From a virus: a DNA stretch of 26,959 bases. The notes beneath the pieces are model-generated. The model ran no database searches and was not told where the DNA came from. It saw only the letters and a program-made list of their open reading frames with translations. The stretch covers positions 1 through 26,959 of the IMG/VR virus record IMGVR_UViG_3300042401_000287; one strand, given 5' to 3'. Below are positions 1,542 through 26,959 of the stretch, one piece after another. Made by a program: the position numbers and the translations under genes. Positions within the stretch are counted from its first letter, which is position 1; the number at the start of each line of letters is the position of its first letter.

Positions 1542-1730
1542 ATGGAAGATGGAAAAACAATTGTATATGATGTGGTGTACCAAGATCGTATAGTTGGAGA
1601 GCTTAAGAAGCTTGCGCCTGCTATACCTCTTATTAAATCACAAGCACAGTATCTCAACCAAAACATCGAAGACTATAAAATCGTTTTAAAGTCCAATGGT
1701 AATGTTGTGTGGTCTGGATCAGTAAGCTAA
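1542..1730 (+). CDS. Small hypothetical protein after the gp32 terminator
   Basis: This 62-aa ORF fills the gap between the gp32 terminator and the end of the convergent minus-strand gene, overlapping that gene's last 12 bases. The sequence looks protein-like: an opening of alternating hydrophobic residues (TIVYDVVYQDRIVGEL), a helical middle, and a closing KIVLKSNGNVVWSGSV strand pair, suggesting a small alpha/beta fold. The ATG at 1542 has no Shine-Dalgarno because the terminator T tract lies directly upstream, and no promoter is visible. It would depend on read-through. I do not recognise a family. It could be a genuine small gene or a chance ORF. Confidence 0.45.
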   Translation: MEDGKTIVYDVVYQDRIVGELKKLAPAIPLIKSQAQYLNQNIEDYKIVLKSNGNVVWSGSVS

Positions 1731-3743
1731 TCTAGAACCTGTATATCTATTTAGTGATCCATCATCTTTTCTAGTTGGTAGATCATACTTAGTAACTTGA
1801 GTATTGTTGCTTACGTTTGTGTTACTTACGTTTGTGTTGTTAGAAGATTTTGCAGAGTCATTTCTAGCTTGCTTTAGTACTGTATTGTCGTTAGTGCCTT
1901 GACTTATAATTTCTCCAGATTTCGAGCTTTCTGCTGGGACGACATTTAAACTTGTAGCAGAGTTGTTCTCTTCAGGACTTATAATATTGCTGGTCATTTC
2001 GCTCGATGTCATTGCAGCTTTAGCTTTAGCTTTAGAGATAGCCTCGGTAGCTACTTTTCTAGCCTCTTCACCTTTTCCAGTATCTAATAGTTTTTTAACT
2101 TTAAAATAGTCTTTCTTTTCTACCTTAACATCATAGTCCCCAGTAGACTCATTACTTAATGTATAAGTATCTTTTCCAAACAATCCACCAGATTTTCTTT
2201 CGCCTAAAATACTAGAATACTCAGTAGACACTTTACCGTTAGCGTCTGTTTCTTTAGAGCCTAGTGACAATATTCTACCAGTGTCTAATCCCTTAGCGCT
2301 AAATAATGCTCCGAGAGTTTCGCTGCCTAATACACTTTTTGCAGTAGTAATGTTTTGTTCAAATTTACTAGATTCTTTATATGTTCCATTTGAACCTGCC
2401 ATTGATTGTTGGTCTACTGCTTTATTTGTCCCTATCTTAAATGTACCAGATGCACCATCACCAGAAGCGTTAACTTCTTGTAGTACCCTTTTGCTTATTT
2501 TATTATAGGCTTCTGTGTTTACTATATTGCCGGCTGTGTCCATTGCGCCAGCTTTTATAGCTCTTTCTTTTACGATTTCATCTCGATTTTGAGCTTTTAG
2601 TGTACCAGAATTTCCACGATTGAATGTGTCTTTAACTCGATCTATAAAGCTAGGACCATTTGGATTTTCGTTTAAGTACTTAGTTTCAGTTGCAATTCTA
2701 GTTGCTGCAGCTTCATTTGCAAGGTTTCCTCCAAATAGTCCGCCAACTTTTTCTATGCCACGACCAAGACCAGATTCTGCTTTTTGGAATAGAGACATTC
2801 TTTCCCAGTTAGCATCATCTTGTTTAGTATCAATCTCTTTACCACCAACGCCAAGTTTTCCTGCAACATAGTCTGCTGCAAAAGGAGCTGCGACCAAAGC
2901 AGCACCTGTAGCCAATGATGCTCCGCCAGCGCTTCCTAGTGCACCTATAACTCCACGTCCTAAAGTTGCACCACCTTTTAAGACAGCGCCTGCGCCACGT
3001 GCTATACTACCACCAGCTCTTCTTAAAACTTTTCCTGCTCGACCTAAAGTTCCTTTGCCTCTACCTATTAGATCACCTATGCCAGGGCCAGAAGATTCTT
3101 CTTTATCGCCATCATCCTTTTTAAGACTTTTATCTAGTAATCCAAACGCTTCAGCCATCTTTCCAGTGTTCTCAGCTATCTGTTTAAGGAATACTGTTTG
3201 CTGATCCATAAACAACTTATTCTCATTTTGCGACTCTTCTGAGCCTCCAAGAGAAGATGATGTACTAGATGGCATAGCACCAGATGATGGATTCATCCAA
3301 CCAGAATATTTTCCAGGTTCTTCTTCTTTCTTAAATGGATTTAAATGAGCCGCTCCAACAAAACCTTGTTTTTCAAATTCAGCTTTATCTAGATGTTCTG
3401 ATATTAATCCACCAGAGCCACGCTCAAGTAGACCAGTTTTATCTAAAAATCCACGAGGAGTTAAAAAATCTTTTAAGTTGTTTTTAAATTCACCAGCTCT
3501 AACTCCAAGAGTTCTAAACTGTGAGCGTCTTTCTAAGTCTACACCAGCTCCATACCCAACATCATTTTGCACTTTTGGTGTACCAGTGCCTGCCATCTTC
3601 CCAGCTAGCTTAAAGGTGTCATTAAGAAGCTTTAATTGCTTCTCTACTTCTTTAGCATGCTTTTCATCTTTTTCGTCTTTCGTTTTTTTATTACGAAACA
3701 TTTCTAAGATGTTGATGCCATCTGGTGATGTTGTGGTATTCAT
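1719..3743 (-). CDS. Probable tail tape-measure / central hub protein (gp29-like candidate)
   Basis: 674 aa, the last gene of the leftward operon. It has a charged helical N-terminus (KDEKHAKEVEKQLKLLND, 23-42), a basic Gly-rich stretch with RGFLDKTGLLERGSGG (97-112), a second helix near 178-210, and a Gly/Ala-rich hydrophobic region (about 220-300, including GASLATGAALVAAPFAA). The C-terminus is Ser/Asn-rich and low-complexity. A long helical protein with a central hydrophobic segment is typical of tape measures. The gene follows a frameshift-linked chaperone-like pair, the canonical position for a tape measure. At about 0.15 nm per residue it would predict a tail near 100 nm; T4 gp29 is 590 aa. 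Start: ATG overlapping the upstream -1-frame stop (TAATG). Function is inferred from context and composition, not from clear homology; a different hub component is possible. Confidence 0.6.
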   Translation of the reverse strand: MNTTTSPDGINILEMFRNKKTKDEKDEKHAKEVEKQLKLLNDTFKLAGKMAGTGTPKVQNDVGYGAGVDLERRSQFRTLGVRAGEFKNNLKDFLTPRGFLDKTGLLERGSGGLISEHLDKAEFEKQGFVGAAHLNPFKKEEEPGKYSGWMNPSSGAMPSSTSSSLGGSEESQNENKLFMDQQTVFLKQIAENTGKMAEAFGLLDKSLKKDDGDKEESSGPGIGDLIGRGKGTLGRAGKVLRRAGGSIARGAGAVLKGGATLGRGVIGALGSAGGASLATGAALVAAPFAADYVAGKLGVGGKEIDTKQDDANWERMSLFQKAESGLGRGIEKVGGLFGGNLANEAAATRIATETKYLNENPNGPSFIDRVKDTFNRGNSGTLKAQNRDEIVKERAIKAGAMDTAGNIVNTEAYNKISKRVLQEVNASGDGASGTFKIGTNKAVDQQSMAGSNGTYKESSKFEQNITTAKSVLGSETLGALFSAKGLDTGRILSLGSKETDANGKVSTEYSSILGERKSGGLFGKDTYTLSNESTGDYDVKVEKKDYFKVKKLLDTGKGEEARKVATEAISKAKAKAAMTSSEMTSNIISPEENNSATSLNVVPAESSKSGEIISQGTNDNTVLKQARNDSAKSSNNTNVSNTNVSNNTQVTKYDLPTRKDDGSLNRYTGSRLAY
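1810..1839 (-). repeat. 15-bp tandem duplication in the 674-aa gene
   Basis: Two adjacent 15-bp copies (1810-1824 and 1825-1839) differ only at the last base. They encode NVSNT and NVSNN near the C-terminus of the probable tape-measure protein. This looks like a recent in-frame duplication in a low-complexity linker. Confidence 0.8.
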
Positions 3744-3919
3744 TAGCTTTGTAACCTTTGTTTTTCTTCTTTTAAGTGCTCTTTAAGCAGATGTACATAA
3801 ACTTCTCTCTCATAGGGTATCATATTATTTAGATCTTCTAAACTATATTTATGATGCTGCATCAATGCAAAATTTGTTTTATAGTGATTGTATGCAGTTT
3901 CATGAGAGAGATTAATTAG
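3743..3919 (-). CDS. -1 frame extension of the gp26-family gene (chaperone GT-like part, no start codon of its own needed)
   Basis: After the gp26-family stop, the -1 frame stays open for 58 codons from 3919 and ends in TAA at 3745-3743, which overlaps the ATG of the 674-aa gene. Its translation is strongly protein-like: NHYKTNFALMQHHKYSLEDL, then NNMIPYEREVYVHLLKEHLK and a charged end. The hydrophobic pattern with a PYERE turn resembles C-terminal extensions of tail-assembly chaperones. A slip on T-TTT-TTC would fuse it to the 241-aa protein, giving 299 aa. The only internal ATG (3862-3860) would give 39 aa and has no Shine-Dalgarno. A lost T in a real seven-T run (sequencing error or mutation) would also explain the break. 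That the frame is coding is fairly sure; the mechanism is inferred. Confidence 0.72.
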   Translation of the reverse strand, partial: LINLSHETAYNHYKTNFALMQHHKYSLEDLNNMIPYEREVYVHLLKEHLKEEKQRLQS

Positions 3920-4641
3920 AAAAAATTTGAGATGCCTGACAATATTTTTTTATGATCTAATGAACACACCGGACACTTATATTCTACTCTGTGCTGGTAC
4001 TTAGGCATAGACTCAAAGAAATCTTTCATCTTAGTAAATTGTTCTGATGTTAGATTGTTTACGAATTCTACCATCTCTTCTAATTTAGTATCTTTCCCAT
4101 GATGAATTTCGTCGCCACTATAAATCATATCAATAGACTGTGCCATTACTTCAATAACACTATTGACGTCACCATCATTACTATCACTCAGCGCTGCTAA
4201 TTTGCTTAGCATATTAATTCCAGGATACTTCATGATGATGCCAACATCGTCAAATAGAGGAATCTTTTTACTGTGATCTGGATCAAACTCTACATCAATC
4301 TTTGTGATGTCGATGTTTAATTTAACTGCAGCTTTAGGATCATTTTCACATGTGTCGCAATAGAACATTAGGTCAACGGTTTCTCCAACTGACTTTGCTC
4401 TAATTTGGCAGAAGATATACTCAATATCAAATGTTGCAAGTGATTCAACATCTATTTTATTTTTAGCGCATGATTCAATAATACCCTTTAAAGTATCAGA
4501 CATTACTGTCACGTCTTCACTTTGCTGAGCAATTAATAGAGCCTTTTCTTCTTTAACTAGAAACGGTCTGAATTTAAACTTCTCTTTTGTAGAGGGAATC
4601 TCTAGTGTATAAACTGGAGTGTTTTGTACTGGTAAAGCCAT
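3916..4641 (-). CDS. 26: gp26-family baseplate hub / tail-assembly chaperone-like protein
   Basis: 241 aa; I place it with the T4 baseplate-hub gp26/gp51-type proteins found in T4-like phages. The N-terminus VYTLEIPSTKEKFKFRPFLV followed by KEEKALLIAQQSED is the family hallmark. Two CxxC pairs (FYCDTCEN in the middle and YKCPVCSLDH near the end) suggest a zinc ribbon. The last codons are AAT TTT TTC TAA, putting a canonical -1 slippery heptamer against the stop. The start ATG overlaps the gp16 stop (TAATG). T4 gp26 is 208 aa. The protein is expected to act in assembling the central hub or tail-tube initiation complex rather than as a major virion component. The gp26 versus gp51 label is uncertain. 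Confidence 0.72.
   Translation of the reverse strand: MALPVQNTPVYTLEIPSTKEKFKFRPFLVKEEKALLIAQQSEDVTVMSDTLKGIIESCAKNKIDVESLATFDIEYIFCQIRAKSVGETVDLMFYCDTCENDPKAAVKLNIDITKIDVEFDPDHSKKIPLFDDVGIIMKYPGINMLSKLAALSDSNDGDVNSVIEVMAQSIDMIYSGDEIHHGKDTKLEEMVEFVNNLTSEQFTKMKDFFESMPKYQHRVEYKCPVCSLDHKKILSGISNFF
3919..3925 (-). other. Candidate -1 ribosomal frameshift site T-TTT-TTC
   Basis: Read on the minus strand, the last zero-frame codons are AAT TTT TTC followed at once by TAA. The heptamer T-TTT-TTC fits the X-XXY-YYZ rule, and an overlapping A-AAT-TTT also fits. A weak CAGG about ten bases upstream could act as a stimulatory Shine-Dalgarno-like element. I see no convincing downstream stem-loop. Confidence 0.6.
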
Positions 4642-5060
4642 TATTTGTCCTTTCGCATTTGTTCAATCATCTTACTCAATTCAGTGGTACTACCAACAAA
4701 CACACTATTGTTTGTGACATTGGTAACACCTTGGGGTGTACGTTCAGTATCTTTGCTTTCTAATTTTGCATGTTTAGTGTGTAAGTCTAGTAGTTGATGG
4801 TTTATATCAGCCACATGTTTCATCAGTCCTCCAACAACTTCAAAAGCTCTTGGATGTTCTGAAACCTTTGCTATTTCAAGTGCGTGGTTTACAGCATCTT
4901 GCCCTTGACGTAGTAATTCATATAGGTTGCCACGAGTCTTTTCATAGTCTGTTTGTATAAAATCATTTTTATAAGTTTCACTAGGTAGTATTTCTACTAC
5001 TTCGGCCTCTATCTTTTGAGTAGGTGCCACATTAAATATTTCAGAGAGTTTATCTATCAT
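4641..5060 (-). CDS. 16: gp16 small terminase subunit
   Basis: 139 aa (T4 gp16 is 164 aa). TerS recognises phage DNA and regulates the gp17 packaging motor. Two blocks match remembered T4 gp16 closely: EHPRAFEVVGGLMKHVADIN, where T4 has [20 protein letters not shown], and NNSVFVGSTTEL, where T4 has NATVFVGSPTEL. The central region is helical, as expected for the oligomerisation core. The acidic N-terminus carries EVVEILPSE. The start ATG overlaps the gp54 stop (ATGA) and the stop overlaps the next start (TAATG). In T4, gene 16 sits directly before the large terminase gene 17; here it lies between tail genes and no large terminase is in the window. Confidence 0.88.
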   Translation of the reverse strand: MIDKLSEIFNVAPTQKIEAEVVEILPSETYKNDFIQTDYEKTRGNLYELLRQGQDAVNHALEIAKVSEHPRAFEVVGGLMKHVADINHQLLDLHTKHAKLESKDTERTPQGVTNVTNNSVFVGSTTELSKMIEQMRKDK

Positions 5061-5824
5061 GTTAAAAGACTTCCTAATCCAGTTTCTATGCCCTGTGACT
5101 GAATTTGTGCAATTGCATTTGCAGCACTTATTTGATCGGCATACTGTTCGTTAAAAGATAATGCATTCTGTAAATATTCAGAAGGTACTGTAGTTGCCCA
5201 AACACTACCAGAATTTGCATAATCAAACGGTATCACACCGTTCAATGGTGTATTTTTATTTGTATTAAAGATGTTTTGGATGCTAGGATCACCACCTAAA
5301 GTATCATACATTTGAACACTGCTGTACTTATAATTAAAAACCACTGCAAGTTTCATCACGTCTTTACTATTTTGATCTAATGCAATCGATTGAATATTTT
5401 TTGGATACGCTTCATAAAGAGTCATTTTATAAATGTTCTTGTCATTAGTATCTAATACTGTAACGTCAATGTCAGTTGTATAATTGTCGTAGTAATTTAT
5501 TGTTCTTGATATTGGATTAATAACACAATTAATCCATGTATCGAAAAAATGTTTCACAGTCATTGCTTGATCTACATAAAAATTTAAAGTGACTGGATCA
5601 AAATTTCTGTCATATGGAATTTCACGTTGCTCACCAAAGGTTCTGGTTGGTTGAGTAGCTATATTAATTCCAGGAATAGATGTGCTTTCACAAAACAAAT
5701 GAATTATTTGAAGGTTGAACATATCTTTCTGAATAAGATCTGGCAATCGAAAATCAACTAAGAATCTATTGTTCTTAGCTAGTGCACGACTTTTAACTTC
5801 TTCTTTAAATCTTTGTAACGACAT
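5057..5824 (-). CDS. 54: gp54-like baseplate tail-tube initiator
   Basis: 255 aa from the ATG at 5824, which overlaps the upstream stop as TAATG; an in-frame TTG 12 bases further upstream is less likely. T4 gp54 (320 aa) sits on the gp48 cap and starts tail-tube polymerisation. The opening SLQRFKEEVKSRALAKNNRF resembles T4 gp54's SLEEFNNQAINADFQRNNMF. The body carries the tube-protein signature shared with gp19: IPGINIATQP, then REIPYDRNFDPVTLNFYVDQ, and later WINCVINPISR with YEAYPKNIQSIALD. It is shorter than T4 gp54, closer to a bare tube-protein fold. A second tail-tube protein is the alternative, but the neighbours favour gp54. Confidence 0.78.
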   Translation of the reverse strand: MSLQRFKEEVKSRALAKNNRFLVDFRLPDLIQKDMFNLQIIHLFCESTSIPGINIATQPTRTFGEQREIPYDRNFDPVTLNFYVDQAMTVKHFFDTWINCVINPISRTINYYDNYTTDIDVTVLDTNDKNIYKMTLYEAYPKNIQSIALDQNSKDVMKLAVVFNYKYSSVQMYDTLGGDPSIQNIFNTNKNTPLNGVIPFDYANSGSVWATTVPSEYLQNALSFNEQYADQISAANAIAQIQSQGIETGLGSLLT

Positions 5825-18703: not shown

Positions 18704-21094
18704 ATGGCTACATCCCTACTTAAATTCTCCTTTAAAACCGGTTTAATTAAATCGGTTATTTCAGAAATTGCTTCTAATATTAGCAAGTATTACTATACTT
18801 TTGGAAAGGCTAACCCTTGGTTTTCTATTAGTGGTGTTACTGCTACTGTAGTTGCAAATTCTAATACCGTTATTCTTACAAGTGGCACTACAACCGGTTT
18901 TAAACCAGGTCAATTAGTTACACAGACTAGCGGTATTGGTAGATTATCTGCAAATGCTAAAGTAGAATCTATTGTTTCTTCTACACAATTTATTGTGACA
19001 GAAGCGCATGTGACTAGTGGGGCTGTAACATTCAGTATTGATGATGAAACAGTTGTTGAAGAAGCTATAGATTCATATGAATATGAGATCGGTGTTAGAA
19101 ATAACGCCATTCTCTATAAACAAATTGACGCTAACGACGTTGCTCCAGTTATTACAAGAATTAACTGGACATCGGGATTTGTTTTTGATATGTATCGTGA
19201 ATATACTACAGACACTCCTTCTTTTAATGGTGCAACATCTATCGACACAGCTCAATTTTATGTACTGACTGATCAGTATCGTGTTTATAAATGCTTAGAC
19301 AATAACAATGATAGTCCTTCATCTGTTAAGCCAACTACTACCTCAAATATACCGTTTACTTTAGCGGATGGGTACATTTGGAAGTATATGTATACTATTC
19401 CAATTACTCTCAGAAATAAATTCTTATCAACAACACTGATGCCTGTTGCTAACGCTTTAACGACTCAATTTTATTCTAGCGGAGCAATAGTTGGCTACTC
19501 AATTGAGAACCAAGGTTTAGGTTATAACAAAACATCTTACAGAATAGATGGATTTAAAATCATCAATGGTGGTACTGGATATGCTGCTCCTTCTATTACT
19601 ATCACAGCGCCAGATCAACCCGGTGGCACAACAGCAACTGTTTTAAGTGTCACGGTCGTATCTGGTGTTATAACTGCTATAACGATGAATCAAAAGGGAG
19701 ATGGTTATTCTTATTCTCCAACGTTTACGATAGTTGGTGGTAACTCATCACAGGCTATAATCGAACCTATAGTTGTACAAACTAGCACAAGTTATACTAA
19801 ATTGACAGTTGACGGCGATGGATATTTAGAAGAAAATCCTTATGAAGTCGAATCTATTGAAATCTTAAATGGTGGTACAGGATATGGATCTATTGATTTA
19901 GCTTTTACAAATCCAGATCTTCCAAATGGAGTTAAGGCTGTTGCTACTGTTACAATTGTAGCTGGTGTTGCTACTGCAGTAGCAATTAACAACAGTGGAT
20001 ATGGTTACTCAAATCAATTCAATTCTATTACAGAAGACCCTAACGCCTCAAATGTGGTTACATATGGACAAACAAACTTAGCAGGAACACTAGGATCTGG
20101 TTTTCGATTTAGAGTTATAAACAAAAAAAATAATGCAGTAATTGAACCAATTATAAACACTGATGGTCAAATAGAACAAATTAGAGTGATTAAACCAGGT
20201 ATTGGATATACTTACGCAAGCGTTAAAGTTGAGAATTTTAATGATGGACCAGAAGATCCAACTGAAGAAGCTTCTATATTATTAGATTTTAGTGTAGGTT
20301 CAATTGAATCAAACCAATCTACGGTTGAAATTACTGCAGTTCCAGGCGCAATAGACGCAGTATATGTAAAGAGTGCTGGTTTTGGATACGTGACAACACC
20401 AACTGTAGAGATCGTTGGAAATGGAACTGGTGCAACGGCTAGCGCTCAATTAGACGCATTTGGACGTATTCGTAAAATTAATATTAATAATTCTGGCATA
20501 GGTTATACAGAAGCAACTGCAGTGATTACTGGATTTGCAACAGAAGACGCAGTACTAGATGTAGTTCTTCCACCTAAAGACGGCCATGGCAGTGATGCTA
20601 TCTCTGAATTGTACGCAAAAACTATTTTATTTAGAACAAATTTATTTAAAGATACAATTTACAGACAAGCAATTAGTAACTCGTTTAGACAAGTGTGCTT
20701 AGTAAAGAATCCTAAAGCTTTTAATGCTAGAACAAATCTTAGATTGGGTATTGCTTCGTCTGCATTGTTAGTAATAGGATCTAATTCCCAAGTAGGCTTT
20801 GGTGAAATAGCAGTCAATGATATTCTTACAAAGGGCAACAGCAGATTTTTAGTGATTAGCAAATATGAAGATTATGATGAGAACAATGATGCTATGTTAT
20901 TAGGATATCTAGATAGCACTTTAGTATCTGCAGGAGATACTATTGGCAAACAAGGCGCAAACTTTTCTGTTAACAGCGTAATATTGCCGGGTGTAAATAA
21001 ATTCTCGGGTGAAGTACTAACCATAGACAATAGAGTTAAATTTAGCCCGTCAGCAGATCAAATCGTTATTGCATCAAACACTATTACCTTCTAA
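18704..21094 (+). CDS. 8: gp8-like baseplate wedge protein, enlarged by GxGY repeat modules
   Basis: 796 aa, more than twice T4 gp8 (334 aa). gp8 forms the middle part of each wedge with gp7 and gp10. The gp8 signature is split: YYTFGKANPWF (30-40) matches T4's FITFGRSEPW, and after an inserted beta domain (about 41-115) come NAILYKQIDANDVAPVITRI, NWTSG, FYVLTDQYRVYKCLD and ADGYIWKYMYTIP (221-233; T4 has GDGYVWEYLFEIP). From about 265 to 605 nine GxGY motifs occur (271, 290, 332, 371, 391, 432, 499, 559, 598), mostly 20 or about 40 residues apart. The C-terminal part (TILFRTNLFKDTIYRQ onward) resembles the end of the wedge fold. Start: ATG 7 bases after the previous stop. Confidence 0.82.
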   Translation: MATSLLKFSFKTGLIKSVISEIASNISKYYYTFGKANPWFSISGVTATVVANSNTVILTSGTTTGFKPGQLVTQTSGIGRLSANAKVESIVSSTQFIVTEAHVTSGAVTFSIDDETVVEEAIDSYEYEIGVRNNAILYKQIDANDVAPVITRINWTSGFVFDMYREYTTDTPSFNGATSIDTAQFYVLTDQYRVYKCLDNNNDSPSSVKPTTTSNIPFTLADGYIWKYMYTIPITLRNKFLSTTLMPVANALTTQFYSSGAIVGYSIENQGLGYNKTSYRIDGFKIINGGTGYAAPSITITAPDQPGGTTATVLSVTVVSGVITAITMNQKGDGYSYSPTFTIVGGNSSQAIIEPIVVQTSTSYTKLTVDGDGYLEENPYEVESIEILNGGTGYGSIDLAFTNPDLPNGVKAVATVTIVAGVATAVAINNSGYGYSNQFNSITEDPNASNVVTYGQTNLAGTLGSGFRFRVINKKNNAVIEPIINTDGQIEQIRVIKPGIGYTYASVKVENFNDGPEDPTEEASILLDFSVGSIESNQSTVEITAVPGAIDAVYVKSAGFGYVTTPTVEIVGNGTGATASAQLDAFGRIRKININNSGIGYTEATAVITGFATEDAVLDVVLPPKDGHGSDAISELYAKTILFRTNLFKDTIYRQAISNSFRQVCLVKNPKAFNARTNLRLGIASSALLVIGSNSQVGFGEIAVNDILTKGNSRFLVISKYEDYDENNDAMLLGYLDSTLVSAGDTIGKQGANFSVNSVILPGVNKFSGEVLTIDNRVKFSPSADQIVIASNTITF

Positions 21095-21099
21095 GTCCA

Positions 21100-21107
21100 T
21101 ATAAATA
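21100..21107 (+). promoter_or_regulatory. Late promoter for the DUF4815-type structural gene
   Basis: Perfect TATAAATA in the 49-bp gap after gp8, 37 bp upstream of the next ATG. Start expected near 21113, leaving a roughly 30-nt leader with a purine-rich GAGAAGAGA ribosome-binding region. Both the intergenic location and the spacing match the strong late promoter before gp48. Confidence 0.8.
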
Positions 21108-21143
21108 ACATATATTGACTCAACAACTTAAGAGAAGAGAACT

Positions 21144-24100
21144 ATGGCATTAGATTTAAACGTATCTCCTTTTTACGATGACTATTCTGAAAACAAAAAA
21201 TTCTATAGAATTTTGTTTAGACCAGGATACTCAGTTCAGGCGAGAGAGTTAACTCAACTACAAACAATTCTTCAGCAGCAAATTGCTCGTCATGGTGATC
21301 ATGTCTTTAAACAGGGATCAATGGTTATTCCTGGCCAGATAGCATATGACACTGATGTTAAGTATATTAAATTAGTTAATTATACTGGGATTGATACGTA
21401 CTTAGCGTCAATTGCTGGTAAAGAAATTACTTCAGAAGGCGGTTTAGTTGCTGAAATTATTGATTACAGTTTAGCTGGAACAGATCCTCAGACTACTATT
21501 TTTGTTAAGTATAAAAATTCTCTTCAAGACGGCTTTGGACGAAACATTTCAGAGTTTGAAGTTAACCAAGTTTTAAGAGCAGTCGATAATACTATAAGTG
21601 GATCTATTACAACTGCAGACGTTAATCGCCCATCTGGTAAGGCTTCTTCAGCTACTATCAAAAAGGGTGTGTATTACATTAACAATAACTTTGTTCTAGT
21701 TGATGATCAGGTTATTATTCTTGATAAGTATGATGCTGAGGGATACTTAGGACCCTCATATAGAGTAGGTCTTCAACTAACTGAAAGTGTAATTTATCCA
21801 GAAGATGATGAATCGCTGCTAGATAATGCATTAGGTTCTCCTAACTATGCAGCACCGGGTGCTGCCCGTTACTTTATGGATCTTGTATTAACTAAGATCA
21901 CTTTAGCAGAAGCTGAACCAGATAACTTCATTGAGTTGCTACGTTTAAAGAATGGTGTAGTAGAATTTAAAATTGACCGTTCGCAATACGCTGAATTAGA
22001 AAAGACATTAGCTCGTCGCACATATGACGAGTCTGGAGATTATGCTTTATCACCGTTCGGTATTCAAGCACGTAATTACAGAAACAACTTTAGAAATGGG
22101 TGGGCCGCTGCTGAAAAATATATTCAAGGCGACATTATAAGAACTACTATTGGTGATGGAATTGACTTTTATTATTTTACAGCAACTATTGCTGGCTTAT
22201 CTGGTAATAGCGCTCCTTCGTTATCAAGAGCGCGTGATGGTCTTGATGATTATACCACAGACAATCAAGTTAGATGGGAATATACACAACTTCCAAACTT
22301 TAATCAAGGTATCTATAGCTTTAACTCTGGTGATTCAGCCTTTACAGCCTTTACTTTAAATGATCATATCCGTTTAGATGGAATGTTAGCATACGGAGTT
22401 GAAGCTGGCAAAGCATATGTTCGTGGTTATGAAATTGAAAAGCTAGCGACAGAGTATCTACCAGCTAATAAGTCACGTGATTTGCCTGCTGGTTCAACAG
22501 CTCTTGCTAACTACTTAGGAATTCCTAATTTTAATAGAAACAGTTCTAATGGACTAGACGCAGTTACTAATACAGTGTCTGTTAAGCAAACCACAAACAT
22601 TTATACCTCAATGGGGTCGTATGTTTTAGTTAAAGATGTTGCTTTTGCGCCAGACTTAGTAAATCTTCCACAAGTTAATTTGTACAGTGTTGTAAAAGGT
22701 TCTGCTTCTGATACTGCTATTCCTAGTCATATCATTGGTAAAGCTAGAATTCGTGCTATCGAATCACATGGTACTTTAGAATCTACACCAGTTTACAAAT
22801 TATTCTTGTTTGATATTCAAATGATATCTAATAAGTATTTTAAAGATGTAAAAGCAATTGGTTCGTTGACTGGAACATATTCATTTCTTTCTAATGCATT
22901 TATTCCAACCGGTTCTACAGATTTAATTCTAAATGATCCACAAAGATCATCTTTATTGCATACTTTACCAAACTATGCAATTAAAAAAATTGTTTCTATG
23001 GACTATATTGTTGTTGTTCCATTTACACAACAAATTTCTACCAGTCCATCTGGGGAGGGTGACTTTGGTGTTATAACTCTTACTGCTCCATCTGGTGGAT
23101 ATACATTTGAAGATAGTGCAGAAAGCAGCAATTACATTGTTGTCAGATTAAATACTGCTACTAGCCCAGGTGCTATATTGATTGCACCTACAATTGCAGT
23201 CGGAGGGAATGGCACAACAGTTTCTATTAGTGGTCTAGAAAAATCTAAACTGTATACAGTGTTTGCAACTCTTAAGAGATCTAACTCTCAAACTTCAACT
23301 TCAACAGTTCAAGTAACAAACCAAACAGAGGTCTTTACAACTGAAGCTACTGCAAGATCATCTGAAATTGTTTTACAGAAAACAAATGGATATCGTATAA
23401 TTTCTATCAAGATGGCTCCTGCAGGCTTCGGTGCTTCGGTTGGATATGATATTGATATCACTAATAGATACACCTTCAGCAATAATAGTGATGTGTCTTC
23501 TGTTGGAAAAATTTCTCTTACCTTGCAAGATGGTGCTCCATTGCCAACTGGTTCAATTGAAGTTAGATATGAATATCTTAACGTGAGTGGCGGTCCTGGC
23601 GACGTAGTAGCTGTAAACTCATATGTAGCTGCAAACTCTGGGCTTAGATACGATGAAATTACGTCAGTGAATGGTGTTCAATTAAGAGATGCTATTGACT
23701 TTCGCCCTCGTGCTAGCACAACAGGCTACTTTGAAACGTATTTCCCAAAGTTTGGCCAATCAACAACTGTTGAATATACGCACTACTTACCAAGAATCGA
23801 TAGTGTTTCATTAACATCCACTGGCCAATTTATCACTAGTGCTGGAGTTCCAAGTCTTAAAGCTGTTGAACAAAATATTCCAGCCAATTCAATGAAACTA
23901 GCTCGCATTTCTTTAGAACCATACACATTTGATCTTGATTCAAATAGTGTTCGTATTGATCGTGTAGAGAATAAGCGTTATACGATGCGCGATATCGGTA
24001 AGCTTGAGAGAAGAGTGCAAGACTTAGAATACTATACATCATTAAGTCTATTAGAGTTAGACACTAAGAATATGCGCATTGTAGATTCTGACGGTTTAGA

Positions 24101-26959
24101 CAGATTCCAAAACGGTTTCATCGTTGATACTTTCGATGGTCAAGGTATTGGCAACTCATCTTCTCCTGAATGGAATGCTTCTATTGATTTTAATAGGAAA
24201 GAACTACGTCCGTTCTTTAATCAGCGCCAGGTTGATTTGCTAGAAAACGTTAATAAAACTACTAAAACATATAAAGTATCTGGTGATTTAGTAACACTTC
24301 CATTTAATGAAGTTTCACTGATTAATCAACCAAAAGCTTCTCGTCGTGAGTTTGTTAATCCATATGCGCTTTATTCGTATATTGGAGTTCTGTCACTAAC
24401 ACCTTGGTCAGACACTTGGTTCTCTACAGAACGCCGTCCAGATATCGTGTTAAACGACGAAGGTCAATACAATGCTATAGTATCTATGGCTGAGCAACAA
24501 GGAGTTCTTGGCACCGTTTGGAATTCTTGGCAAACAGTATTCTCTTCAAGTAAATCACTTGGCGAGAGAATGGACACTCTAAACAGATGGTCAGAAGCAA
24601 ATACCGTAGTTCTTAATGACGGCAATAATGGTGGAACTTTCTGGAGAGCACGTTCTGATTTTACTGCAGATGAGTTAGTTGCTATTGGTGTTGATCCAGC
24701 ACTAGCAGGTAATCAAAATGCGTTGAACTCTTCTGGTGCGGCCGGGTTGCGCGTAGTTACTATTGAAACACAAGCTGTAGAAACTACTGCTAAGCGTAGT
24801 GGTGTAAGATCTTTTGTAGTAGATAAAGTAGATTCTAGAGTACTAGAAGATCGAGTTGTTGATACTAAGATCGTTCCATATATTCGTCCAAGAGCTATAT
24901 TAGCGCGCGGCTTTGGATTCAGATCTAACACTAGACTATATAACTTTTTTGATGGTACTAATGTTGATCGTTATGTGCAATGTGCAACTCGTATTGAGTA
25001 TACTAAAATTTCTGGCAAGCACGACACATTCACTACTACACGAAACTGTGGTTCAAACGTTCAAAATGCTGAACGCTTAGTAAGTTATGCAACCGGTTTG
25101 TATATGACTGGTACAGTTACTGTAACAAATGGTTCTACAGCTGTAGTTGGCTCCACAACAGCTTTTACAACTGAAATTTCCGCGGGAGATACTTTCTTTA
25201 TTGGTAGCGATGCTTATATAGTAGCTGCAGTACCTAGTAACACAAGCTTGACTTTGAAAAATGCATACACAGGGACTACAGCTTCTGCAATTGCAGCAAC
25301 TGTAAAAAGCACTAAACACTCTAACTTAGAAGTTGAACTTGCGTTTAGTCATGGTGAAGTTATTAAAGAATATGATGCATCTAACGTTGCTACTGGTCGC
25401 ACAGCAATTGTTGTTGGTCAAGAAATAAACGCTGGTAAATATTACGTTTGGGTTCTTAATGAGCGCGGCGATAATAAATACAGCACTGCAACTGGTCATT
25501 ACCTTGAGGGCGAGTATACTGATGTTCTTAGCTCTAAGCCAAGAATCAAATTTGTTGCGAGAACAGTATTTGACAATTTAACTTCTAGTGCAACTGGTCA
25601 AGTTAATGGTATCTTTAGAGTTCCTAATAACCCAATCGACAAGTTTAGAACTGGTACTCGCGAGTATCGTTTAACAGACAGTCCATCAAATGCTGCCAAT
25701 GAAACTACTTACGGTGCAACATACTATCAAGCGAACGGACTAGTTGAAGTTAAACAGCGTACTATTATTTCAACTAGAACTGCTGAAATTGTTTCAGAAG
25801 TTGTGTCGGATGATAAAACTGTTATCAATGTGTCAGATCGCGTAACTGCTGATTCTGGCTGGTTTGATCCATTAGCTCAAACCTTCTTAGTGCAAAATGA
25901 GGGTGGTTGCTTTATTACATCTGTTGATTTATACTTTGCTGCAGTTGATCCAACTGGTAAAATTCCAGTTAGAGTTGAAATTCGTGAAGTTGTGAATGGA
26001 TATCCAGGTAAAGTGGTATTGCCATTCTCGCGTGTAAGCAAGCAGGCTGCAGATATTAATGTTGACTCTATTGCTGGTACCACTGCAACAAACTTTAAAT
26101 TTAACTCTCCAGTATATTTGCAAAATGGTACAGAATATGCGTTAACAGTACTTTCTGATTCTAATGCATATGAAATGTGGATTGCTCAAACATTAGAAAC
26201 TGATGTTATTAGTAAAGCTGTTATCAATTCTCAGCCATATAATGGTGTACTATTTAAGTCGCAGAATGCTTCTACATGGACAGCAGATCAAACTCAGGAC
26301 ATGAAGTTTAAAATCTATCGTGCAGAGTTTACAAGCACTTCAGCTGATATTGAATTCATTCCTCCAGAAAATAAAGCTAAAGCTCTTGCATTTAATCCGC
26401 TCAACTTTATTGAGAATGGTACACAAATGCGTGTTACCCATCGTGACCACGGATTTAGACCTCTAGACACAGTGACTTACACAAATCGTCAGATTACTAC
26501 ATTTGTTAATGGAATTCCATCTGCGTATCTGTTTAATACTCCACTAACTGTTTCTAACATTGAAACAGATATGTACATGGTAGAATTAAATTCAATTCTT
26601 CCAAAATCTACATCATCACTTGCTATTGGAACTGGTGCTAGAACATTTGTGCTAAGCACAAATTATGCTAGAGCTAAATTTGATGCTTTTAGAACTGGTA
26701 ATACTGTAATTAGATTTACAAGATTCGATACAGCAAACAATGTGATTTATGATAATACATATATGGAAGGCACTATTACTAGTGTAACTGATACAAGTAT
26801 TATTATGAATATAACAAAGGTTGGAAGTGTCACAGGAACATTTAACTCTTGGATTTTATCTTCAACTACATCTGGACAAACTGGCGGAAGTTATATTTCA
26901 GCAACTGAAAACTATGAGTTTCAAACGGTGCTAATGAATGGTAATACAAACGTTCTTCC
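21144..26959 (+). CDS. Giant DUF4815-type baseplate/fibre-attachment structural protein (runs off the right edge)
   Basis: The frame is open from the ATG at 21144 to the last base, at least 1938 codons, with no stop. The N-terminus (LNVSPFYDDYSENKKFYRIL, FRPGYSVQARELTQLQTILQ, HGDHVFKQGSMVIPGQ) is the DUF4815 signature found in large structural proteins of T4-like marine phages. Later parts include a helical LERRVQDLEYYTSLSLLELD (near residue 954), an inserted small beta domain with GTVTVTNGSTAVVGS (near 1321), and DPLAQTFLVQNEGGCFITSV (near 1575) followed by IPVRVEIREVVNGYPGKVV, a block recurring in such proteins. It sits after gp8, where T4 has gp9/gp10, so a role in the outer wedge or fibre attachment is likely. 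It has its own late promoter. The C-terminus is not seen. Confidence 0.88.
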   Translation, partial: MALDLNVSPFYDDYSENKKFYRILFRPGYSVQARELTQLQTILQQQIARHGDHVFKQGSMVIPGQIAYDTDVKYIKLVNYTGIDTYLASIAGKEITSEGGLVAEIIDYSLAGTDPQTTIFVKYKNSLQDGFGRNISEFEVNQVLRAVDNTISGSITTADVNRPSGKASSATIKKGVYYINNNFVLVDDQVIILDKYDAEGYLGPSYRVGLQLTESVIYPEDDESLLDNALGSPNYAAPGAARYFMDLVLTKITLAEAEPDNFIELLRLKNGVVEFKIDRSQYAELEKTLARRTYDESGDYALSPFGIQARNYRNNFRNGWAAAEKYIQGDIIRTTIGDGIDFYYFTATIAGLSGNSAPSLSRARDGLDDYTTDNQVRWEYTQLPNFNQGIYSFNSGDSAFTAFTLNDHIRLDGMLAYGVEAGKAYVRGYEIEKLATEYLPANKSRDLPAGSTALANYLGIPNFNRNSSNGLDAVTNTVSVKQTTNIYTSMGSYVLVKDVAFAPDLVNLPQVNLYSVVKGSASDTAIPSHIIGKARIRAIESHGTLESTPVYKLFLFDIQMISNKYFKDVKAIGSLTGTYSFLSNAFIPTGSTDLILNDPQRSSLLHTLPNYAIKKIVSMDYIVVVPFTQQISTSPSGEGDFGVITLTAPSGGYTFEDSAESSNYIVVRLNTATSPGAILIAPTIAVGGNGTTVSISGLEKSKLYTVFATLKRSNSQTSTSTVQVTNQTEVFTTEATARSSEIVLQKTNGYRIISIKMAPAGFGASVGYDIDITNRYTFSNNSDVSSVGKISLTLQDGAPLPTGSIEVRYEYLNVSGGPGDVVAVNSYVAANSGLRYDEITSVNGVQLRDAIDFRPRASTTGYFETYFPKFGQSTTVEYTHYLPRIDSVSLTSTGQFITSAGVPSLKAVEQNIPANSMKLARISLEPYTFDLDSNSVRIDRVENKRYTMRDIGKLERRVQDLEYYTSLSLLELDTKNMRIVDSDGLDRFQNGFIVDTFDGQGIGNSSSPEWNASIDFNRKELRPFFNQRQVDLLENVNKTTKTYKVSGDLVTLPFNEVSLINQPKASRREFVNPYALYSYIGVLSLTPWSDTWFSTERRPDIVLNDEGQYNAIVSMAEQQGVLGTVWNSWQTVFSSSKSLGERMDTLNRWSEANTVVLNDGNNGGTFWRARSDFTADELVAIGVDPALAGNQNALNSSGAAGLRVVTIETQAVETTAKRSGVRSFVVDKVDSRVLEDRVVDTKIVPYIRPRAILARGFGFRSNTRLYNFFDGTNVDRYVQCATRIEYTKISGKHDTFTTTRNCGSNVQNAERLVSYATGLYMTGTVTVTNGSTAVVGSTTAFTTEISAGDTFFIGSDAYIVAAVPSNTSLTLKNAYTGTTASAIAATVKSTKHSNLEVELAFSHGEVIKEYDASNVATGRTAIVVGQEINAGKYYVWVLNERGDNKYSTATGHYLEGEYTDVLSSKPRIKFVARTVFDNLTSSATGQVNGIFRVPNNPIDKFRTGTREYRLTDSPSNAANETTYGATYYQANGLVEVKQRTIISTRTAEIVSEVVSDDKTVINVSDRVTADSGWFDPLAQTFLVQNEGGCFITSVDLYFAAVDPTGKIPVRVEIREVVNGYPGKVVLPFSRVSKQAADINVDSIAGTTATNFKFNSPVYLQNGTEYALTVLSDSNAYEMWIAQTLETDVISKAVINSQPYNGVLFKSQNASTWTADQTQDMKFKIYRAEFTSTSADIEFIPPENKAKALAFNPLNFIENGTQMRVTHRDHGFRPLDTVTYTNRQITTFVNGIPSAYLFNTPLTVSNIETDMYMVELNSILPKSTSSLAIGTGARTFVLSTNYARAKFDAFRTGNTVIRFTRFDTANNVIYDNTYMEGTITSVTDTSIIMNITKVGSVTGTFNSWILSSTTSGQTGGSYISATENYEFQTVLMNGNTNVL

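Follow-up and report, generated by a model that had tools for sequence, protein, structure and literature searches.

We analyzed a virus record of 26,959 bases (IMG/VR record IMGVR_UViG_3300042401_000287; the whole stretch is called the window below) and found that its gp26-family gene very probably encodes a G/GT-type tail-assembly chaperone, one gene giving two products through a -1 ribosomal slip. The basis is a slippery heptamer at the end of the gene, a conserved coding -1 frame beyond it, and the homology of the products to T4 gp26 and gp51. The trick is known for other phage tails and has apparently been reported already for T4-like phages.

A sequence-only reading of the window had placed a T-TTT-TTC directly against the stop of this gene and proposed that the -1 frame then stays open for 58 codons and ends in a TAATG shared with the next gene. 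Both points were confirmed. The minus-strand codons at the end of the gp26-family gene are ATC TCA AAT TTT TTC TAA TTA, and from the heptamer the -1 frame translates as FFLINLSHETAYNHYKTNFALMQHHKYSLEDLNNMIPYEREVYVHLLKEHLKEEKQRLQS*, ending at position 3743 in a TAATG that also starts the next open reading frame (ORF), of 674 amino acids (aa). The products encoded, in terms of coding potential, are a short protein of 241 aa and a fusion of 241 + 58 = 299 aa, with the N-terminal part common to both. These are the lengths predicted earlier for the G and GT equivalents. Without a frameshift, the gp26 stop and the 674-aa ORF would be separated by 172 nucleotides (nt), where a gap of about 170 nt had been noted, and all four remaining operon junctions overlap, as ATGA or TAATG, which had also been claimed (the junction at 5824 was read from the sequence, the ORF list using an upstream TTG there). 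The nearest upstream stop in the -1 frame lies 8 codons before the slip site. An open frame of 58 codons has a chance of about 1.6% given the base composition, which is weak evidence by itself.

Profile searches matched both parts of the gene (Table 1). The gp26-family ORF reached 193.6 bits with PF12322 (curated cut-off, 24.5). Positions 5 to 232 of the 282 in phrog_150 matched the window gp26 and positions 231 to 282 matched the -1 piece, so that the family profile spans the junction. The -1 piece also matched phrog_634, which is annotated as "baseplate hub assembly catalyst," gp51.

Conservation of the T-run and of the frame beyond it, interrupted at the same point, had been named beforehand as a sign of frameshifting, and this is what the relatives revealed, in support of the earlier reading. 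A tblastn search of a phage collection with gp26 matched 934 records at one place each (60 listed), and a search with the 60-residue -1 piece matched 775 phage records at an expectation value (E) of up to 10 (60 listed). In all six records common to both lists (P-SSM2, S-SZBM1, S-CAM4, P-RSM6, Sf-CH8, and Sf-CH11), the gp51 match starts exactly seven bases before the end of the gp26 match. Among IMG/VR loci, T_TTT_TTN followed by a continuing -1 frame was present in the first 19/19 and in 80/80 of the best 80 of 597 confirmed relatives (the contig ends before the -1 frame stop in L024 and L086). These loci, 12 named phages, and the window, 112 loci in all, were reduced to 93 representatives less than 90% identical, 89 of which harbor the heptamer as TTTTTTC (59), TTTTTTT (28), TTTTTTA (1), or TTTTTTG (1), with T-runs spanning 6 to 8. 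Where the second codon is TTA (L050) or TTG (L105), leucine replaces the second phenylalanine and the slippery heptamer is retained. In the representatives with the T6 run, Phe-Phe is preceded by Ser, Asn, Asp, or Ala, encoded in 89/89 by a codon with T at its third position; multiplying the codon-usage probabilities gives 10^-31.5, but this treats the sequences as independent, and we do not read it as a P value. The T6 run is also present in members of higher G+C content (Moby, 54% in the stretch read; phiN3, 49%) and in 11 of 15 named phages, counting three outside the representative set. One locus, L103, differs from the other 79 tabulated in having 104 open -1-frame codons ahead of its slip site, with ATGs among them.

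Judging from the pattern of substitutions, the -1 extension evolves under protein selection: among 198 pairs at least 75% identical, changes at codon positions 1, 2, and 3 numbered 2403, 1250, and 4982, and a rough ratio of nonsynonymous to synonymous substitution rates (dN/dS) was 0.065. Among 91 representatives, 22 have the 0-frame stop immediately after the heptamer; the stop comes with a delay of one codon in 66, of two codons in 1, and of eight codons in 2. In L057 and L060, the 0 frame runs 8 codons beyond the heptamer and the short product is thus tailed; Mosig (L125) stops later too.

We also looked at the flanks of the heptamer. A Shine-Dalgarno-like element ending about 5 to 10 nt upstream reaches -5 kcal/mol in 67 of the 93 representatives versus 11% of control places. 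At the codon before the glycine of expected place (88 representatives), GAG was found 52 times, GAA 13 times, and a codon other than Glu 23 times; elsewhere in the same genes, GAG makes up 24% of the Glu codons. Predicted RNA folding reaches its maximum immediately 3' of the heptamer, where 40-nt windows at +6 have a mean z of -1.36 versus -0.41 to 0.19 upstream. At least 9 pairs of an 11-base-pair stem, which was derived from one sequence of the delayed-stop group and towards which the pair counts therefore lean, occur downstream in 19 of 92 representatives, all within the 69 whose stop lies one or more codons later, and in none of the 23 whose stop is immediate. A compensatory paired change is clear at one position of this stem and is seen as a single instance at another, and we take the stem to be a subgroup feature. 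Some relatives harbor the Shine-Dalgarno-like element, the heptamer, and the hairpin in that order.

Several observations weigh against frameshifting to two chaperone forms. In the window itself, the upstream Shine-Dalgarno-like element is weak (-2.5 kcal/mol), and folding gave no hairpin near the slip site. A hairpin about 21 nt downstream (z of -1.85) was set aside as lying beyond the usual geometry. Frameshifting in the window may be less efficient or may rely on the stop codon, and a stimulation of slippage by the adjacent stop is plausible. The relatives were selected by similarity (the best 80 of 597) and include few distant ones. Four representatives lack the T6 run, namely Vibrio phage K474 (GCTTTTT), BX-1 (CGTTTTT), phiMAM1 (GGTTTTC), and SE14 (GATTTTC), corresponding to L106, L109, L111, and L112. 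All four keep the -1 frame, K474 and BX-1 have a TAATG, and the way of producing the long form may have changed in these loci. The GGTTTTC of phiMAM1 resembles the T7 gene 10 site.

Structural comparison speaks in part for a chaperone and in part leaves room for doubt. The model of the short protein has a mean predicted local distance difference test (pLDDT) score of 91.8. Its best-aligned PDB chains are 3fgx (Z of 7.9) and 2ob9, the tail assembly chaperone of HK97 (Z of 7.5; 84 residues aligned at a root mean square deviation of 4.2), followed by a row at 4.4, but by the aligner's own note a Z of 7 to 8 is common for models that match nothing clearly. Foldseek gave an E of 2.7, which is not significant. 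For a model of a natural fusion (T4 gp51-like), built on an alignment of 6 and with a poorly predicted extension (block means of 50 to 64), there was no chaperone match (best Z of 2.9). A sequence search of solved structures returned none for the gp26 profile and one chance match for T4 gp51.

The remaining such points concern start codons and bear on an alternative, termination and reinitiation, by which gp51 would be a separate small protein begun at or after the gp26 stop, as in public annotations. An ATG lies near the junction or the start of the extension in 42 of 91 representatives (17 have only GTG or TTG), and TAATG or TGATG is found at the gp26 stop in 7 of the 12 named phages (phiN3, RHph_I1_9, K474, Moby, R11Z, BX-1, and S-CRM01). 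The L013 group likewise has TAATG at the junction, and a separate gene is annotated at or just after the stop in 8 of 15 named records. However, 32 of the 91 representatives have no ATG, GTG, or TTG near the junction, and in the window the TAA context is TAATT and the first possible start lies 20 codons past the start of the slip site, inside a conserved block of the extension. Reinitiation therefore cannot explain those loci. Moreover, the conserved frame starts at the heptamer, and gp51 of T4 spans the full fusion. Most such ATGs are separated from the Shine-Dalgarno-like element by about 17 nt or more, probably too far for initiation, and the element is also present in 20 of 33 loci without a start. 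On balance, we consider reinitiation an unlikely explanation; in some relatives, a separate gp51 may be made in this way, instead of or beside the fusion.

Transcriptional slippage, in which the polymerase would add or drop a U in the T-run so that some mRNAs encode the fusion in frame, is less probable still. Runs of 6 to 8 Ts would favor it, but a six-T run is short for polymerase slippage, the run sits as X_XXY_YYZ in the 0 frame, and the flanking Shine-Dalgarno-like and hairpin signals in many relatives are of the kind that acts on ribosomes. A sequencing error or a decayed gene, with a lost T splitting a single ORF, has next to no probability: homopolymers are error prone, but three further IMG/VR contigs (L002 to L004) are identical to the window across 400 nt around the site, which makes a sequencing slip very unlikely as the cause of the break, and the same break recurs in 80/80 relatives and in 15 named phages.

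With -1 frameshifting as the favored reading, most ribosomes would halt at the TAA and yield the 241-aa gp26-like protein. A fraction would slip back one base on U_UUU_UUC, the two tRNA-Phe re-pairing to UUU UUU, and would read the gp51-like extension to give the 299-aa fusion. In this scheme, the tape measure protein from the following gene would be coated by the short form, whereas the long form would bring in tail tube subunits or the hub, and neither would stay in the completed tail. Slippage itself, its rate, and these chaperone steps are inferred.

The gene encoding both forms directly precedes the 674-aa ORF, which the sequence-only reading had named as the tape measure gene. This is probably correct, although the evidence is indirect. 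The N-terminal part of the 674-aa protein resembles the syntenic protein of L009 (34% across 108 aa; E = 1e-11 when four sequences were compared), which in turn matches the tape-measure family phrog_4372 (E = 3.4e-10). Of the three syntenic proteins scanned (L007, L009, and L015), the other two lack such a match; the 674-aa protein also resembles that of L007 at the N terminus. On the other side, profile searches gave no convincing family match for the 674-aa protein itself, and BLAST gave no useful match to the tape measures of HTVC008M or T4. HTVC008M (L022) has a tape-measure match in the same neighborhood as gp26/gp51. Between gp51 and the tape measure, at 3903-4235, it harbors a 110-aa ORF whose EF-hand match is weak (E = 0.0012) and falls short of the Pfam cut-off.

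T4 belongs to the same protein family as the window gene (PF12322; phrog_150, phrog_634), but its genes 26 and 51 are separate and lie on opposite strands, whereas the window has a single gene with a -1 frameshift. T4 gp26 matches positions 14 to 235 of 282 in phrog_150, ending where the short product ends, and T4 gp51 matches positions 13 to 280 of 282 plus phrog_634, i.e., the whole fusion. One gene here would thus supply what T4 makes from two. An uninterrupted gene holding both parts, which had been named as a refuting result, does exist in T4 and seven IMG/VR relatives, but each of these carries a short gene 26 plus a separate fused gene 51, hence both products, and this form of the result helps the frameshift reading.

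In a tree of 45 sequences, the 29 members with the frameshift arrangement stood apart from the 16 of T4 and the seven relatives (support, 96/85), among which gp26 (99/98) and gp51 (100/100) form two clades. The root of this tree is arbitrary and leaves the order of events unproven; its L122 gp51 row stems from a match with a length not divisible by three, and its L105 branch is very long. R11Z and AS-zj, Straboviridae without a placement in Tevenvirinae, show the frameshift arrangement, T6 run included. No second gp26 copy beyond the one place per record was found among the 934 tblastn records, a search not aimed at a diverged copy. We give even chances to a scenario in which the gp26 -1 frameshift would be ancestral to the whole T4 superfamily and would persist in the marine lineages and many of the terrestrial ones, much of this range having a signal of two or three parts. 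In the T4 subfamily, duplication into 26 (short) and 51 (fused) would have taken its place, and the window would have shed both stimulators and rely on the stop next to the heptamer.

PMC5009743 describes the G/GT mechanism, with G-T frameshifting conserved in long-tailed phages and T4 as the exception. Lambda gpG/gpGT and the HK97 gp13 type pair a short form with a less abundant -1-extended one, encoded immediately ahead of the tape measure gene, an arrangement that the window would share. The modeled short protein of the window shows a modest fold match to HK97 gp13, with no solved-structure match by sequence; set against the lambda/HK97-type chaperones, its slippery site is U_UUU_UUC. A study of phage Adele (PMC12846349), which also mentions T7, describes a family-wide -1 frameshift in Vandenendeviridae at a T-run ending the short chaperone gene, like the putative one here, with an invariant GTTTTT motif versus T_TTT_TTN in the window family. 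Some relatives share the order of element, heptamer, and hairpin with dnaX-type signals, whereas the window has only the heptamer and the adjacent stop. The dnaX heptamer is A_AAA_AAG, and that of the gp26 family is U-rich.

PMC10885494 states, citing Vladimirov et al. 2022, that some T4-like phages, in place of frameshifting, have one gene for the short chaperone and another, longer one that is fused, and T4-like gp26/gp51 appear already to have been identified as tail-assembly chaperones (Vladimirov 2022). No gp26/gp51 frameshift in cyanophages or pelagiphages was described in the titles and abstract openings listed by the literature searches, a scope outside which most subscription papers fall. 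T4 gp51 is stated to be absent from the particle (PMC3004832), and a study on T4-like Klebsiella phages (PMC13119998) names a supplementary mass-spectrometry peptide table suggesting frameshifts.

If the frameshift is true, annotation in many T4-like genomes would be corrected. A match to the -1 piece covering at least 80% of it occurs in 617 phage records (E up to 10). Across 15 named records, the extension is omitted in 4 (AS-zj, phiMAM1, SE14, and ACG-2014j), started internally in 3 (HTVC008M, Mosig, and Melnitz), and given as a separate gene in 8; the fusion is annotated in 0. In a 2010 study (PMC3037559), the first ~200 residues are noted as missing from cyanophage and marine vibriophage gp51, with no cause given in the text seen, and a one-gene frameshift arrangement would explain this description. 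The same study lists gp51 as missing in Aeh1, for which the frameshift may likewise account. The family would also offer a test case of frameshifting versus gene duplication meeting the same need.

Table 1. Features of the gp26-family locus in the window
Feature	Coordinates	Strand	Evidence
gp26-family ORF, 241 aa, short (G-like) product	3916..4641 (including stop codon)	-	PF12322, E = 4.8e-57; phrog_150, E = 1.5e-61
Slippery heptamer T_TTT_TTC, 0 frame	3919..3925	-	T_TTT_TTN in 80/80 relatives and 89/93 representatives
0-frame stop TAA directly 3' of the heptamer	3916..3918	-	Same position in 22/91 representatives
-1 frame extension (gp51-like, T-like), 58 codons past the heptamer; putative 299-aa fusion	3743..3925	-	phrog_634, E = 3.3e-24; phrog_150 positions 231-282, E = 3.8e-8
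674-aa ORF, probable tape measure protein	1719..3743	-	N-terminal similarity to the syntenic L009 protein

The minus-strand order in the window is head closure, DNA end protector, tail tube, small terminase, and gp26 matches, and then the 674-aa ORF. The small-terminase-like gene (phrog_445, E = 4.9e-42; 4641-5060, minus strand) directly precedes gp26 inside the tail operon. Over the last 5.8 kilobases of the window (21094-26959), the ORF list shows no closed ORF above 80 aa; this region is probably one long frame running off the end, open-ended ORFs being left out of that list.

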